A DNA stretch of 64,000 nt from Pyropia yezoensis (Eukaryota; Rhodophyta; Bangiophyceae; Bangiales; Bangiaceae): assembly GCA_009829735.1 (NCBI GenBank), contig CM020619.1, forward strand, positions 30,530,063 through 30,594,062, written 5' to 3'. How positions within the stretch are numbered: the stretch's first letter is position 1; each line of letters starts with the position of its first letter. Below are positions 47,295-57,754 of the stretch, piece by piece. Made by a program: the position numbers and the translations under genes. Under the pieces are notes generated by a model. The model worked only from the letters and a program-made list of their open reading frames with translations. It was not told the origin of the DNA and ran no database searches.

Positions 47295-48651
47295 ATGGCG
47301 CCGGCCGCCGCCCCCCCCCCGCCGTCGGCGCTGCCCCCGCGGCGGTCCGCGTCGTCACGCCCGCCGCTCGCGGCGCTGCCCGCCAACGCGGCCCCCCCCG
47401 GTGGCCCCGGTGGCCCCGGTGTCGGCGGCGGCGGCCTCCCCCCCCCCCTCCCCGTCAAGCCCACCACCGCCGCCACCCCCGCCGCGGTCGCCGCCGGTGG
47501 GGCGCCGCCGGTGCCGCCGCCGTCGGTCGCCCCCGCGGTCGCCCGCTTCATGCCCCCGCGCCGCCGCTCCTCCCTGTCCGCCGTCGCCCGCGTGCAAGAG
47601 GCGGAGGAGGAGGCCGCCGCCGCCGCTGCCGCCGCCGCCGCCGCCGGCACTGCCGGCACCGTCGCGGCCGGTGCTGCCGGCACCGTGGCGCTGGGCGGCG
47701 CCCCGCCGGGGGCGGCTGGGGCGGCGGGCGGGGACGCCCCCGTCTCTGCCGCCACCGTCGCTGCCGCCGCTGCTGCCGCGGACGCCGCTGCTGGTGCCGA
47801 CGGCGGCGGGCTGTCGCTGCCGCTGCCGCTGCCGTTTCCCGAAGAGGAGGTGTGGGGGGGCGGGGGGGGGGTGCCCCTCAGCCGCCGTGCCAGCCTGTCG
47901 GGCAAGCGCGTGTCGTTTGGGGGGGAGCAGGTGAAGGTACGTTGGCTGTGTGGTCCACGCGCTCGTTGAGGAGGAGGACGGTGACGGCGGACGATGCCAA
48001 GCAAAGTGGGAGGGGGGAGGTGCCAAAGGAGCAGCAGCTGCGAGCGGACGCTACTGCCCGGCGGGTGCCGCGTGGCAATGTGCTGCGACTGACAGACCCC
48101 ATCCACGGGCGTCCCGCCGCGTGCGTCCTGGAGATGTGTTGTGTTTCTTCTTTTTCTCGTCTGCGGCGGTCCTTCCCCCTTCCCGCACACTCACTCTGCC
48201 CCCCCCTCCCCCCCCCTCCCCCCCCCCCCCCCCCCCCCCCACAGCTCTTCAAGACCAACCCCGACGAGTGGCGGGACGAGTGGGCCACCCCCGAAAAGGA
48301 CGGCTCCCCCGGCGGCGGCAGCGGCAGCGGCGGCTCATCGGGCGCGTCCACTCCCGCCACCGCCGAGCCGGTACCGACGCCGCTGGGGGGCACGGCCGTG
48401 GCGGCCACCCCCGTCGCCCCACCGGCACTCGCCACTAGCGCCGGCGCCGGCGCGGGCGCCTACCCCGCTGGCGCGGGTGGCCCCACCGCCGGCCCGTCCG
48501 CGTCGCCCTCCCCGTCGCTCTCCCCGTCGGCATCCGAAACGCCATCCGTGTCGTCCGCCTCCGAGTCCCTGTCCCCGTCGTCCCTGTCGCCGTCGCCGGG
48601 CCGGCCGGCGGCCGTCCCACGCGGGGCAACGGGCACGCCCCGCCCGCCGTC

Positions 48652-48719
<68 letters not shown>

Positions 48720-49408
48720 CCGCCGCCGCCGCTGCGGCCGACACAGACGCTGACCGCGCCACGTCCCCGTCGTCCGTGTCCCCGACTGCCAATGCCGCCG
48801 GTGCAGGCGGCGGCCGCGGCGGCGGCGACGACGACCCGATGGACGAGGACGACCTGTCGCCGCTCCCCGCGTGGGTGCCCCCCCCGCTGCCACCCGCGGC
48901 CGATGCCGCCGGGGACGGGGCGCCGCTGACGCCCGCCCGCGTCGGAGGTGGCGGCGGTGGCGCCATGGACGAAGACAGCAGCAGCGCCGACGACACCGTG
49001 TCGCGGCTGCCCCCGGTGTCCACCGAGTTTGCCGCCGCCGCCGCCGCCGGCGCGCCCCCCGCCCCCCCACCGCGCCCCGCCCCGTCGGCGGCAACCGCCG
49101 CGGCAGCGGCAGCGGCGACGGCGGCGGCAGCGGCGGCAGCGGCGGCAGCAGCAGCAGCAGCGCCACCGTCGGCGGCGACGACCGCCACTGCTGGGGCGCT
49201 CCCCCCCCTCCCCCCCACCGCCTATGGGGCCCCCGCCGACACCTCCCCGTCGGCCACCTCTGACGCGGACAGCAGCATGACGCTCGGCTGGGCGGCGGGC
49301 CTCGCCGCCCGCTTTGGCGCCGCCCCCGCCAGCACGGTGGGGGGTTCCTCCCCCACGCCCTCCTCCCCGGGCGGGGGGGGTAGCGTCGCGACCAGCGTGT
49401 ACGGCGGC

Positions 49409-49439
<31 letters not shown>

Positions 49440-50966
49440 GCTGGGGCGGCGGCGGTGGGCCCGCCACGCCTTCGGCGGGGGCTCTCGCCCGCCGCCCCCC
49501 CCACCCCACCAGCGGCAGCGGCGGCGGTGCCTACCCGTCGGTCCTCCCGCGGCTCCCACCGGGGGCGACCCCCCCCGCGGCGGCGGCGGGCGCCTGGGTC
49601 AACGCGGCGGTGCCGCGGCCAAAGCGGTTCCGCGTCAGCGCGTTTGCGGGCGCCGCGCTGGGTGGCGACGGCGACGGCGGCGTCGCAACGCCGGGCGGCA
49701 CCGCCCTGTCGCTCGGAGGCAGCGTCAGCCCGTCCCCGTCCCCGTCCCCGTCGCCGCCGCTGCCAGGCGGCGGTGGCGGCGGCGGCGACAACACCGACGG
49801 CAGGGTGGCGGTTGGGGGGGGGGCGGGGGGGGGGGGGGGGGGCGAGGAGGAGGAAGAGGAGGAGGACGACGACGACGCACCGCTGCCACCGTGGGCACCC
49901 CCCCCGCCGGGGGGAGGGAGCGCCGCCACCACCCCGTCGGTCGCGTCGGCGTCGCCGCCGTCGCCAACGCCGCCGCCGCTGCGGCCGGCGGTGTCCCCGG
50001 CGGGGGGGCCCGCCGTTGATACGGCGCCGCCCTCCAAGCGCCGCCGCCGCTCATCGGCCGCGTCTGCGGGTGGCGCGTTGGCCGCTGAGGCGGGGGCAGC
50101 GGCGGCCGCCGCTGCGGCGGCGGCGGCGGCGGCGGCGTCGCCCACTCCCTGGGGGGCCTCCCCTGGCGCCTTTGGCGGGACGGGCACCCCCGAGGGCGGC
50201 TTTGGCGGCGGCTGCGGCAGCAGCGTCGGCGGCGGCGGTGGTGGTGGTGGTGGCCCCGGCGGTGCCGCCGAGGCGGTCGCCTTCCTCCGCCGCATGGCCG
50301 CCGGCGGCAGCGGCGGCGCGGCCGCCCGCGAGGCGCGCCGCCTGTCGGGGGTGGCTTTTCTCCGCGACGATGCGCCCGCGAGTGACGGGGGGAGCCTGGG
50401 CGGGGGGGAGGGGGGGCTCCCGCCCTTTCCCGGCGAGACGCCCCCGCCGCCCCCGCCCGCCGCCTCCCTCCGTGCCATCCTCGATGACGACGACACTAGC
50501 GGCGGTGGGGGTGGGGGTGGTGGCGGTGCTGGGGGGTGGGAGCAGAGTGGCGGCGGCGGTGGCAGCGGGCGCTCCCACTGGGCCGACGACGCCGACGGGT
50601 CCGGGTCGGGGGCGGACGGGGTGACGCTGGGCGGCGGCGGCGGCGGCGGTGGGAGCTGGGCGTCGGCGCCGGGCGGGGCGGACATGGAGGACGACAGCCT
50701 GCTGGGCGTGCCCGACCGCACCGCCCCGCCGGAGGCGGCGCCCGTGGCGCTCGCGTGGACGGCCGGCGCGGGCGACGGCGCGGGGTGGGGGTCCTCCCCC
50801 GCCGCCGCCGCGGGCCGTCACCACCCCGACGGCGGTCACGGCGGCGACGACGCTGCGGCGGGGCTGCCCTGCCTCCCCCCGCCGGTGCGTGGGGCGGAGA
50901 GCGCCGACGCCATCCCGCCGCTGGCGTCGCTCCTTGCGGGCGACGACGACGACGATGACGACGACG

Positions 50967-51001
<35 letters not shown>

Positions 51002-52153
51002 CATGGCGACGTGATGCACGTGGACACTGCCGGCATGGCGCCACCGTCTGCCGCCCCTGCCGCCGGGCCCGCCGGGCCACCTGCGGCGGCGGCGACGGCG
51101 GCCGACACGGATGTGCTGCCACCGTGGAGCCCCCACTCGGCGGCGGGCACGGGCAGCAGCAGCGACAGCGGCGGCGGCGGTGGCGGCGGTGGCGGTGGCG
51201 GCGGTGGCGGTGGCGGCGGCAGCGGCCGCGGCGCGGTGGCCGACGCGGACGCCGCGTCGTGGGGGGACGACACGCGGGCGGGGGTGGCGGCGCTGCTGGC
51301 CGACGCGGGGGACCCGGCGGGGGGGGCCCTCTACCCGCCGGTGCGTCACGAGGGGTACGGGGACTACCTGTACCCCCCCGTGGGCGGTACTGGCGGGGGG
51401 GGGGGCACGCCACCGGCAGCCGTCCCGGCCGCCTCCGGTGCCGGGGTGCCGGCGCCCGCGGCCCCGCCGGCGCCAGCGCCCGCGTCAGCACCCCGTGTGG
51501 CGCCTGTTCCACCGCCGCCGCCGGCGGCGTCGCCCCTCCCGCTAGTGGCGGGCGCCCCCCGCGGGGCGACGCCCCGCGCCACCGCCGCCGCCGCCGCCGC
51601 CGCCGTCGCCGCTGCCGCGCCGCCGCCGCCGGCCGCGCCGCCAGCACCGGCACCCACGCCGGCGGCGGCGCCGGTGGGGGTGGGCGCGCCCGTGCGCTTC
51701 CCCCCCCCACCCCCCCCCCCCGAGCGCAAGCTCTTTGGCGCAGGCGCCGCCGCCGGCACCGACGCCGACGAGGACGACACGACGCTCCACTATTACGACG
51801 GCCGCCAGCCGGCGGCGGCGGCGCCCTACAGCCTCGCGCCGGCCGGCGGCGGCGGCGGCGGCGGCGGCGGTGGCAGCAGCGGGGTGCCGCCGCCGGCGGT
51901 GGGCGGGCGCCCGCCGCGGCCGCCGGGCACCGGGGCGGGCACAACCCCCCGGCGGGGCGGCGGCGGCGGCGGCGGTGGCGGCTGTACCCCATCGCCGGCG
52001 CGGGCCCCCGTCGCCGGCGGCACCGCCCCGTCGCCGCTGCCGCCGATTGTCGAGTCCCCGACGGGTGCCGCCGCCGAGTCGCCGCTCCCCGCGTTTGTCT
52101 TTCCCGGCATGCCATCCCTGGACGGCGCCGCCGATGGGGCGGCCGCCGCCGCA

Positions 52154-52186
<33 letters not shown>

Positions 52187-53926
52187 ACGGCGTCGGCGGG
52201 CGGGTCGGCGGCGTGGGGCGCGCCGACCGCGGCGGGCAGCGCCACCACCGCCGGCGCCGCTGCCGCGGGAGCCTCTAGCAGCAGCAGCGCCGCCTCCCTG
52301 CGGGCAGACGACGCGGCGCCGGCCTTTTCCATTGCCGACTTTCTCGCTGCTGCCAACATTGACTTTCTCGACGACGTGCCCGTCTACTCGCGCCCCCCCT
52401 CCCCCGCGGCGGGCCTCCTCGCAGCGGCCGGGTCGGCCGGCGGTGCTGGGCCGCCCACCCCCCCCACTGGGGGCGGCGGCGGCGGCGGCGGCGTCCCCCC
52501 CCCCGCGGTCGGTGCCGCCGCGCTCGCCGCCACCCTCACCGCCCGCCTCGTCACCGCCCCCGCCACCGGCCGTGTGGCGGCCGCCGCGGCCGACGCGGCG
52601 GCCACCGCCGCCGCGGCGGCGGCCACCGCCCGCCGGCGGGGCGCCGCGCTCGTTGCCGCGCGGCCGCCCGTCTACGCGGAGCTCGCCGCCGCCCGCCCCT
52701 CCCAGTGGGCGGTCGCGCCGCCCGCTGCGCTGCGGGCGCGCAAGGAGGTGGCGTCGCTCGCCGCCGCCACCGCCTGGTACGACTGGCGGGCGGGCGTCGA
52801 GGCGGCGGCCGCCGCCGCCGCCGCCGCCGATCGGCCGGCCGTGGAGGGGGGGGTGGCCGCCGCCGCCGCCGCCCGACGGCGGGTGGAGGAGGCGGCCGCC
52901 GACTTTGCCGCCGCCCTGCCCCCGTGGGCCGCAGCCGCCGCCGCAGAGGCGGCTGCGGGGGGGCTTTCCTCCGCCCCTGCCGCCGCTGCCGCCGTCGCCG
53001 CCACTGCCGACCTTGACGACCCTGCCGTCGCTGCTGCTGCCACCGCGGCCGGCGACGGCGGCCACCCCCTGGACGCAGAGGTGGCGGCGGCGCTCGACGA
53101 GTACGCCCGCCTGGCCACCGCCGCCGCCGCCGCCGCCGCCCGCACCGCCGCGGCGACCGCCGCGGCCGCCGCCACCCGCCGGACCCCCGCCGACCTGGCC
53201 GCCGCCGCCGCCGCGGCGGCGGGGGTGGCCCACCGCCTCCCCGCGGCGGCCACCGCCGCCGCCGCGCCGGCGGTGGCGGCGGCCGCCGCTGGCGCGTCGA
53301 CGGCGGCGCTGGCCGCCGCCGCGGGCGCACGGCGGCTTGACAGCCGCCTCGAGGCTGCCCTCTGCCGCGCCCGCCCCGTCACCACTGCCGGTGGGCACGG
53401 CGTCGTCGACGGGTCGGCGGCGGCGTCTGCGGGGGGGGTGGTGCCCCCGCCAGCTACCGCCCGCGTGGTCGTCGCAGACGGGTGGGCGGTGGCGACGGTG
53501 AGGACAGTTACGGCGGCGGCGGCGGCGGCGGCGGCGGGCGCCCCGGCGACGGCGGCGGTGACGCTGACGCCGCGTGCCGACGGGGCCACCTGGGGCGGCG
53601 CCCTGCTGGCCGCCGCCACCCGCCTCGCGGCGCGGACCCACCTGGCGGGCGGCGCCCCCGTGGCCGCCGCGACCGTGCCCGCCCGCCTCGCCGCCGTTGC
53701 CCGCTCCCTCACCGCCGTTGCGTCGACGGTGCGGGCGGTGCGGGCGGGCGTGCCGGGGGCGGGGCGGAGCGGCGGCAGGGCGGGGGGGGGCAACGTGGAC
53801 ATGGGCGGCCTCCCCCTGTGGGACGCGGCCGTCCACGAGTATGGGGGGGACGGCCCCGCGGCTGGCACGCACCCCACCGGCGGCGGCGGCGGTGGTGGTG
53901 GCGACGCTGCCGCCGCTACCGCCGCT

Positions 53927-53967
<41 letters not shown>

Positions 53968-54334
53968 TGCCGCGGGGCTCGCCCCCCCGCCGCCGGTGCG
54001 CCCCCGGGCCGACCAGCTGGTGGTGACCACCACCCAGCTGGTGACCCCGCGCAGGGGCGGCGGCGGCGGCGGCGGCGGCATTGGCGGGCGGCCGACGCCG
54101 CGCGGTGCGGCCTTTCGCGTGTCCGTCGCGTGGACCGCCACCGCCGCCGCTGATGGGGAGGTGCAATGGGACGCTGCTGTGACGGGCGTGGCGCCACTGA
54201 CGTGGGGGGGGGTGCCGCTGGGCGGCCGCCCGCCGCCGGCGGCCGCGGCGGTGGCGGCGGCGGTTGGGGGGGGGACTGCGGGGGGGAGCGGTCTGGGGGC
54301 GGGCGTCTTTGCGTTGCAGCGGCTTGCCGACTGA
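47295..54334 (+). CDS. KNL1/Spc105/Spc7-like kinetochore scaffold candidate, two exons, 2243 aa
   Basis: KNL1 links microtubules, protein phosphatase 1 and Bub checkpoint proteins at the kinetochore. Exon 1 is 47295-47936, exon 2 is 48245-54334; the 308-bp intron has donor GTACGT and acceptor CACAG, phase 0. The ATG at 47295 is GCCATGG. Splicing joins GKRVSFGGEQVK to LFKTNPDEW, giving an RVSF phosphatase-docking motif (205-208) in the context seen in KNL1 (RVSFAxxxxVF); RRRSSLS at 89-95 resembles the upstream SILK-type motif. About 1,350 residues of Ala/Gly/Pro/Ser low complexity follow, with short acidic MDEDD-type islands. FSIADFLAAANIDFLDD near 1575 matches the family FLxxxxIxFxD box. A predicted coiled coil includes RKEVASLAAATAWYDWR (about 1715), like the WYxWR of KNL1. 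The end (about 1880-2243) could be RWD domains. The assignment rests on motif order. Confidence 0.7.
48653..48690 (+). repeat. GCA microsatellite, about 12 copies
   Basis: In-frame GCA repeat coding poly-Ala in the KNL1-like protein, continuing into GCC codons; likely length-variable. Confidence 0.85.
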
Positions 54335-55408: not shown

Positions 55409-55760
55409 ATGACCATCACCGCCGCCGCCACCGCCGCTCCCCCTACCTCTGCCGCCGCCTCCGCCGCCGCCGCCGCCGCCGCTGTCGCGTTTGCCGCCCC
55501 CCCCGCCGCCGCCACCGCCACTGTCGCGGCGGCGGCCGCCACCCGCACCACGTCGGGGGTGCGGATCCGTGTCGCCGCCGTCGCCGCCGCCGCCGCCGCC
55601 GCCGCCGCGCCGGCTCCCCCGCCGTCGGTTGCCGTCTGGTGCGGTCCCCGCCTGACGACGGGCGGGGGGGGGCCGTCGCGGTTCGCCGCGCCCGCGGGCG
55701 CCGCGGGCCACCGCTGGCCGCCGCCCCTGCCTGGCACCCCCCGTCACCGCCGCCATTGGC

Positions 55761-55797
<37 letters not shown>

Positions 55798-57754
55798 CAA
55801 TAGCAGCAACAACAACAGCAATAGCAGCAACAACAACGGCAATAGCAGCGCCAGCGACAGCACCATTGCCTGTGGTAGCGTGGTCCTAGGCAGGCGAGGC
55901 GGCAGCCCGTCCCGCCCCCCCCCCTACGCGGCTGCTGCTGGCGCGTCAATGGCAACGATGGGCGCCAGGGAGAGCCCCCCCCCGCTGCCCTCCGCGCCCA
56001 CACTACAGCGCGGCGAGTCGGTCCGCCTGCCCGGCCTGGTCGCCACGGACATCCGCTTCACCGCGCCGCTCGACTACTTTGGCACCCCGGGGCTGCCTCG
56101 GGCGCTCGCCGGCTCGGGGCTCACCATCTTTGCGCGGGAGGTGGTGCTGAGCCACAAGGCCCCGTCGCGCGCGTCGCTGCCGGCGGTCCTGTACCTGCAG
56201 GGCGGGCCAGGCTATGAGGGGCCCCGCCCTGCGGATGCGAGCGGCTTTGTCAAGCGGCTGGCGGAGGAGTTTCGGGTCATTCTGCTGGATCAGTACGTTG
56301 AGGGCGGCGCGGAGGGGTGGCGGGGGGGTGCGGTGGGGGTGGTGTCGGGTGCGAGAGCGGTGCGGAGCGGCGCGTCTCGGACTCTCAGCGCTCTTGGGGT
56401 TGGCGAGGCCGAATGGTCGGGTGTGAGGGTGCTCTGCAAGCGCGTGCTTGGGCGATGGTGGGGGCGAATCTCGCTGGCCCGTCTGACCGACACGGCTGCT
56501 GCTGACACTCGCGCATTTCTTTTGCTTCTGAGTGTTCTGCTTCTTTCGTCTCCACTACGTAACCCACCCTGTCCTCTGTGCTCGTTGCCGTTATTCGTTG
56601 ACAGGCGTGGCACTGGTCTCTCCTCGGCCGTCACGGTCGAGTCGCTTGCTGACATCAGTGACGACCCCGAAGAGCAGGCTGCTTATCTCCGCTGCCTTCG
56701 CGCCGACTCGATCATCCGCGACGCGGAGCTGCTGCGCGCTTCCCTGCTAGGCACCACCACTCAGTGGACCATCCTTGGTCAGTCGTTCGGGGGCTTTTGC
56801 TGCCTCTCGTACCTCTCTTTTTTTCCGAATTCCCTGTCCGCGGTGCTCATCACGGGCGGGCTGTCGCCGGCGCACCTTCCGGGCTGCTCAGCCGACCAGG
56901 TGTACCAGCGGTTGTTGCCGCGGGTGATCCGCCAGATGGATGCCTACTATGAGGCCTTCCCTGCTGACGAGGCTGTGGTGCGGGATGTGGTGCTCCATCT
57001 GGATAGCCTGCCAGAGAGGTACGCGCCACTGCCTTCGGGTTCCCACCTGACGGTTGCGGCCTTCCAGTCGGCTGGGCTGTCGTGCCTCGGCTTTGCGGGT
57101 GGCTTTGCGCGGCTGCACTACCTGCTGGAGCGTGTGTTTGAGCCGTCCAAGCGACCCGAACGTGGGGCGCTTGCCGGCGGCGGTGGTGACCCCAACGGGT
57201 CTGCCGATGACGCCTCTTCCGTGCGGTTGAGTTCCTACTTTTTGTCCTCCATTGACGGACTTCTGCTGCCGTCCATCAACCCCCTCTACGCCCTCCTGCA
57301 CGAGTCCATCTACTGCGATGGCGGTGATCAGGCGCCCAGCTGGTCGGCCGAGCGCGTGCGGTCGTCAATGCCTAAGTTCAACGCCGTTACCCGCGCCCGC
57401 TCCGGCCAGCGCGTCTACCTGACGGGCGAGCAGGTCTACCCGTCGTCGTTTCAAGATGTGGCTGGCTTGCAGGCCGCTGCGGGCGCCGCGGACGCGCTCG
57501 CCCGGTGGCGCGACTGGACTCCCCTGTATGACCTGCCAACGCTGCGGACCAACACCGTGCCGGTGGCGGCAGCGGTGTACCTCAACGACATGTTTGTCGA
57601 CTTTGAACTGAGCCGCGAGGTGGCCGACGTGGTGGCTGGCGTCAAGATCTGGGTGACGAGTGAGTACGCGCACAGCGGATTGAGAGAGCACCCAACACGG
57701 GTGCTGGACCGGCTGTTTGGGCTGCTCAGGGGGAAGGTCACCCTCGAATCGTAG
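55409..57754 (+). CDS. proline iminopeptidase (S33 alpha/beta hydrolase), two exons, up to 677 aa
   Basis: S33 prolyl aminopeptidases release N-terminal proline from peptides. Exon 1 is 55409-56292 and exon 2 56605-57754; the 312-bp intron (GTACGT...GACAG) splits a Gln codon and restores DQRGTGLS, a family signature. Other motifs are LYLQGGPGYEGPRP (oxyanion HGGPG equivalent), GQSFGGFCCLSYLSFFP with the nucleophile Ser near residue 353, NDMFVDFELS with the likely catalytic Asp, and EYAHSGLREH with the His near 649. The N-terminus is uncertain: ATG 55409 (A at -3) gives 677 aa with an Ala-rich leader and a Ser/Asn homopolymer tract, while ATG 55949 gives 497 aa, closer to the family length. 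The intron is stop-free and a multiple of three, so an unspliced transcript would still encode one continuous protein. Confidence 0.88.
55761..55857 (+). repeat. GCA/ACA-type trinucleotide repeat coding poly-Ser/Asn
   Basis: Imperfect AGC/AAC triplet repeat giving a run of Ser then mixed Ser/Asn near residues 118-150 of the longer peptidase form. Confidence 0.85.
56293..56604 (+). other. intron of the iminopeptidase gene, 312 bp, stop-free
   Basis: Starts GTACGT, ends TTGACAG after a T/C-rich stretch. Excluding it gives the DQRGTGLS signature. Length 3 x 104 with no in-frame stop. Confidence 0.85.

Follow-up and report, generated by a model that had tools for sequence, protein, structure and literature searches.

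In the window, i.e. the whole stretch of 64,000 nucleotides of Pyropia yezoensis DNA that was analyzed, a two-exon gene was identified which, as judged from its sequence, very probably encodes this organism's version of the KNL1/Spc105/Spc7 kinetochore scaffold, so enlarged by Ala/Gly/Pro repeats that ordinary searches hardly pick it up. This identity had been proposed by a sequence-only reading and is supported by co-linear matches to the Spc7 family, by the order of the motifs and by the lack of a better KNL1 among the results of the genome searches; the best family score lies below the curated cut-off.

Gene structure and composition

The features of the gene are compiled in Table 1. Splicing results in a product of 2243 amino acids with a single terminal stop, in which KRVSF (residues 204-208), FLAAANIDFLD (1580-1590) and WYDWR (1725-1729) follow one another. 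Thus, the two-exon model and the motif order of the sequence-only reading were borne out by coordinates and translation. For a protein of this length and composition, the expected counts are 2.05e-4 for [KR]RVSF, 2.18e-6 for FL....I.F.[DE] and 8.38e-6 for WY[DE]W[RK], values which are rough guides only because the patterns were picked after the sequence had been seen.

The protein contains 28.6% Ala, 18.0% Gly and 13.0% Pro (together approximately 60%). The GC contents at the first, second and third codon positions are 0.824, 0.783 and 0.882, respectively, and the local GC content amounts to 80-84% in the three 2-kb steps between positions 48001 and 54000. The dilution by Ala/Gly/Pro repeats is indeed present, but it is not confined to KNL1, as both MadBub frames of the genome are padded in the same way over the extent of the fetched loci. 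The frame 55409-57754 (+ strand), which neighbors the gene on its downstream side, is that of an alpha/beta hydrolase, with an Abhydrolase_1 match above the cut-off (E 2.7e-06) and a Ser/Asn-repeat stretch ahead of the domain.

Table 1. Features of the KNL1 candidate gene (positions refer to the window)
Feature	Position	Strand	Residues	Basis or remark
Exon 1	47295..47936	+	1-214	214 codons; ATG start, in-frame open, donor GTACGT, phase 0
Intron	47937..48244	+		308 nt, GT...poly-C tract...ACAG
Exon 2	48245..54334	+	215-2243	2029 codons plus stop, no internal stops
RRAS, basic site adjoining the PP1 motif	47883..47894	+	197-200	sequence
KRVSFGGEQVK, RVSF motif (putative PP1 docking)	47904..47936	+	204-214	continued by LFKT at 48245-48256
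MDEDDLSPLPAWVP, candidate acidic LPxW unit	48839..48880	+	413-426	post hoc pattern
MDEDSSSADDTVSRLPPV, candidate degenerate unit	48965..49018	+	455-472	post hoc pattern
DDDDAPLPPWAP, candidate acidic LPPW unit	49865..49900	+	755-766	post hoc pattern
KRRRR, likely nuclear localization signal (predicted function)	50036..50050	+	812-816	sequence
MEDDSLLGVP, candidate degenerate unit	50684..50713	+	1028-1037	post hoc pattern
DTDVLPPWSP, candidate acidic LPPW unit	51104..51133	+	1168-1177	post hoc pattern
Putative Spc7 entry box FSIADFLAAANIDFLDD with flanks	52316..52384	+	1572-1594	Spc7 profile 3-25, E 0.27, 11 bits
Putative Spc7 coiled-coil segment, RPPVYAEL...ATAWYDWR	52658..52792	+	1686-1730	Spc7 profile 92-135; ungapped to SPC105 9s4q_Kl
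Candidate RWD-N	53459..53752	+	1953-2050	position and by-eye comparison with the KNL1 RWD region; low-confidence model
Candidate RWD-C	53978..54331	+	2126-2243	both models show a helix preceded by three strands

The RVSF motif and its continuation across the intron

An N-terminal RVSF motif with the conserved continuation expected of KNL1/Spc105/Spc7 is present in the predicted protein. Reading past the donor without splicing gives RVSFGGEQVKVRWLCGPRAR (also written VKVRWLCGPRAR) and then a stop. The spliced reading is RVSFGGEQVKLFKT, and its counterpart in KNL1 is RVSFADTIKVFQT. Splicing recreates RVSF...VKLFKT, comparable to RVSF...IKVFQT of KNL1, and this restoration of the continuation supports the motif and the intron alike. 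The layout of KRVSFGGEQVK + LFKT is the same as that of KNSRRVSFADTIKVFQT in the KNL1 chains 8ppr_K and 6czo_B; compared to RRVSFADTIKVFQT of these chains, the candidate has one extra residue separating RVSF from [IV]K. By composition, [IV]K[LV]F.T, a post hoc pattern, would be encountered at any of three offsets with a probability of 4e-8. The motif had been placed exactly where the two exons meet. It does lie near the end of exon 1, but six further residues, up to residue 214, precede the junction. Hence, the conserved continuation and not RVSF itself straddles the two exons. Neither exon 1 nor the RVSF piece scanned apart matched any Pfam family.

The RRAS site close to the motif is presumably an Aurora-type phosphosite. 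By eye, residues 87-100 (PPRRRSSLSAVARV, 47553-47594) look like residues 196-206 (SRRASLSGKRV, 47880-47912), as if the basic phosphosite beside RVSF were duplicated.

Matches to the Spc7 family

For the whole of exon 2, the only Pfam match was Spc7 (PF08317, the KNL1 family), with an E-value of 0.019. The last 777 amino acids again matched solely Spc7, in two stretches (E 0.0024, 17.7 bits). This best score does not reach the curated Pfam cut-off of 34.5 bits, which is a search threshold and not a biological trait. Scanned alone, a piece of 89 amino acids with the FL box matched only PF08317 (profile positions 3-25, E 0.27) and a piece of 120 amino acids with the coil only Spc7 (positions 92-135, E 0.053). 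The distance between box and coil is 91 residues in the candidate, compared to 66 positions in the profile. From these sub-threshold matches, a predicted Spc7 domain consisting of the FL box and, in profile order, the WYxWR coiled coil is present. The profile search suggested beforehand thus turned out favorable, since Spc7 was the sole family for exon 2 and was met by two separate pieces in order, albeit below the cut-off.

Spc7 was absent from the Pfam matches of both shuffled sequences that were scanned (eight had been made) and of all six open reading frames in other frames over or running past the locus, the latter being a rough control because their composition differs from that of the candidate. 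It was also listed for none of three proteins of the same genome scanned at E 0.01. Stray sub-threshold matches do occur in GC-rich sequence, as exemplified by a slice of 66 amino acids from a MadBub locus (L003) matching YedD with E 0.00045, and by one shuffle matching DUF4191 with E 0.048. For this reason, weight is placed on the two separate co-linear Spc7 matches and not on single E-values.

The SPC105 chain 9s4q_Kl, assigned to budding yeast by its chain name, was reached at its WYEWR coil with an Spc7-like query sequence. Residues 1687-1737 of the candidate align with this chain ungapped over 51 residues with a score of 33, a value reached by none of 5000 shuffles (maximum 17). Most of the score is supplied by the WYxWR core; with the core removed, the score of this register was -3 and its rank 2 of 2193. 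Fungal Spc7/Spc105 (PF08317; 9s4q_Kl) and the candidate have in common the FL box followed by the WYxWR coiled coil and a spacing of 35 residues between PP and WY. What separates the candidate from them is its sub-cut-off score, approximately 25 additional residues between box and coil and an Ala-rich coil. PDB sequence searches with the last 777 or the last 134 amino acids, or with either the RVSF or the FL peptide, revealed no KNL1. A segment of 86 amino acids of SPC105 used as genome query gave no match anywhere, and since even the candidate locus was missed, this search was without power. As a DNA pattern, WY[DE]WR occurs at 11 places in the genome, compared to seven for the reversed control; the candidate's place was the one examined.

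The C-terminal region

The C-terminus of the protein probably comprises diverged RWD domains, as suggested by its position. Two single-sequence AlphaFold2 models, the first spanning residues 1920-2243, revealed strands at approximately 2138-2147, 2170-2181 and 2187-2200 followed by a helix, at low mean pLDDT values of 43 and 58. In the second model, the strands of the candidate RWD-C had block pLDDT values of 67-82, and its helix had values under 50. Among the matches listed by fold searches with these low-confidence models, no recognized RWD protein was found, the C-terminal 324 amino acids matched no Pfam family, and PF18210 (Knl1_RWD_C) had no match in the genome.

The middle arm

MELT motifs are the checkpoint-docking part of KNL1. 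Some accepted KNL1 members have degenerate MELT motifs or none at all, so that these are not defining, and the SILK motif is not universal among KNL1 proteins either. In the candidate, neither canonical MELT (M[DE][ILVMFYA][ST]) nor SILK ([SG]ILK) was detected, M[DE].[ST] does not occur in residues 215-1560, and a genome search with PF19221 (MELT) did not reach the locus. Since canonical MELT is absent, the checkpoint half of the KNL1 role is presumptive.

The arm contains three LP[PA]W.P sites (421, 761, 1172) and three M[DE][DE]D sites (413, 455, 1028). For both patterns, which were defined post hoc, a count of three was reached by none of 20000 shuffles of residues 215-1560, a procedure that disregards the clustering of acids; in an earlier run, the maximum for LP[PA]W.P was two. 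From their sequence, the acidic units may be a lineage-specific docking repeat. A further proposal, tentative and of low probability, is that in this lineage KNL1 retained its Spc7 anchor and the motif for phosphatase docking but lost the phosphorylatable MELT, whose place is taken, between residues 413 and 1177, by sparse acidic units of the types M-acid-acid-D and/or acidic-LP[PA]W-x-P. As the M-acid-acid-D units have an aspartate at the place of the threonine of MELT, docking of Bub3-MadBub could be constitutive or make use of a new motif.

Kinetochore partners and competing loci in the genome

The genome searched comprises 107,475,971 bases in 11 contigs, three of which measure 43.6, 34.3 and 29.4 Mb. 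Profile searches detected Ndc80 (E 1.8e-30), Nuf2 (E 6.8e-28) and Spc25, the last with an E-value of 0.0064 barely above its cut-off. Two MadBub loci were found, L003 (C2:3024789) and L004 (C1:2073121). The L003 frame has a KEN box near its start, which suggests a Mad3/BubR1-type copy, possibly alongside a separate Bub1-type copy. Mis12 was not found by the Pfam profile search of the genome. Such blanks for Mis12 and Knl1_RWD_C may be expected, because fast-evolving families are read exon by exon.

Profile searches with Spc7, PF18210 and PF19221 revealed no better KNL1 elsewhere in the 107.5 Mb. That the gene has no better competitor was upheld in this respect, but the Spc7 search ranks the candidate locus only second (E 6.57) behind a match with E 3.02 (L001, C3:22082448-22082630). 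The latter was rejected as a generic coiled-coil protein: 642 amino acids of its 818-aa frame show by eye neither RVSF nor an FL box or WYxWR, and this stretch has sub-cut-off matches to ATG16, TBCA_PH and CENP-F_leu_zip. A MELT match (L010, C1:40257736; 15.7 bits, E 2.9) was likewise discarded since it lies in an open frame of 131 amino acids without any KNL1 feature visible by eye.

Discussion

The candidate resembles human KNL1/CASC5 (8ppr_K, 6czo_B and 4nf9_A, which we assume to be of human origin) in the [KR]RVSF motif followed by [IV]K[LV]F.T and in length. With 2342 residues in the solved chain 8ppr_K and 2243 in the candidate, the term 'giant' used in the sequence-only reading holds only in relative terms. 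Unlike the human protein, the candidate lacks canonical MELT and SILK motifs, and its RWD pair consists of candidate regions only.

KNL1 is the ordinary scaffold coupling chromosomes to the spindle and the checkpoint. By analogy with studied KNL1 proteins, we infer PP1 binding, kinase control, kinetochore anchoring, nuclear import and checkpoint scaffolding for the candidate. The N-terminal RVSF segment would dock protein phosphatase 1, and an Aurora-type kinase might block or release the phosphatase via the serine of RVSF and adjoining basic RRxS sites (RRAS). A presumably disordered, long, acidic and Ala/Gly/Pro-rich arm would come after this segment. The Spc7 domain would be built from the FL box together with the coiled coil that carries WYDWR. 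This coil and the C-terminus may tether the protein within the KMN network, the C-terminus at the Mis12 complex, next to Ndc80.

It is conceivable that the gene encodes a low-complexity nuclear PP1-binding protein other than KNL1, in which RVSF, FL and WYxWR arose by chance. All family scores are below threshold, neither a recognized RWD protein among the listed fold matches nor canonical MELT was found and stray Pfam matches arise in GC-rich sequence, as mentioned above. However, the expectations by composition range from 2e-4 to 2e-6 per motif and the motifs occur in the right order. Moreover, two separate segments match Spc7 co-linearly, and the KNL1 hypothesis was put forward before any search, which makes a chance origin clearly unlikely. 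Still less probable, indeed very improbable, is a KNL1-derived pseudogene or relic without a kinetochore role, the working KNL1 being another, unrecognized gene. MELT, SILK and a recognizable RWD are missing, and the compositional drift is very strong at all three codon positions, but 2243 codons are open, the splice is clean and the informative islands, including RVSF with its continuation, are intact; in addition, the genome revealed no better candidate. Identification as the KNL1 scaffold is thus preferred.

No description of a red algal KNL1 was recognized in the titles and abstract openings among the matches listed for KNL1 or kinetochore and red algae. A study covering 90 eukaryotes (PMC5579357) may already include one in its data set.

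As KNL1 is difficult to detect from sequence, one that was missed can pass for a lost one. Short motif islands that stay legible in a protein consisting of approximately 60% Ala/Gly/Pro offer a way to seek KNL1 in other GC-rich algae. If the absence of MELT is real, a lineage with two MadBub loci would be a test of checkpoint docking without MELT.
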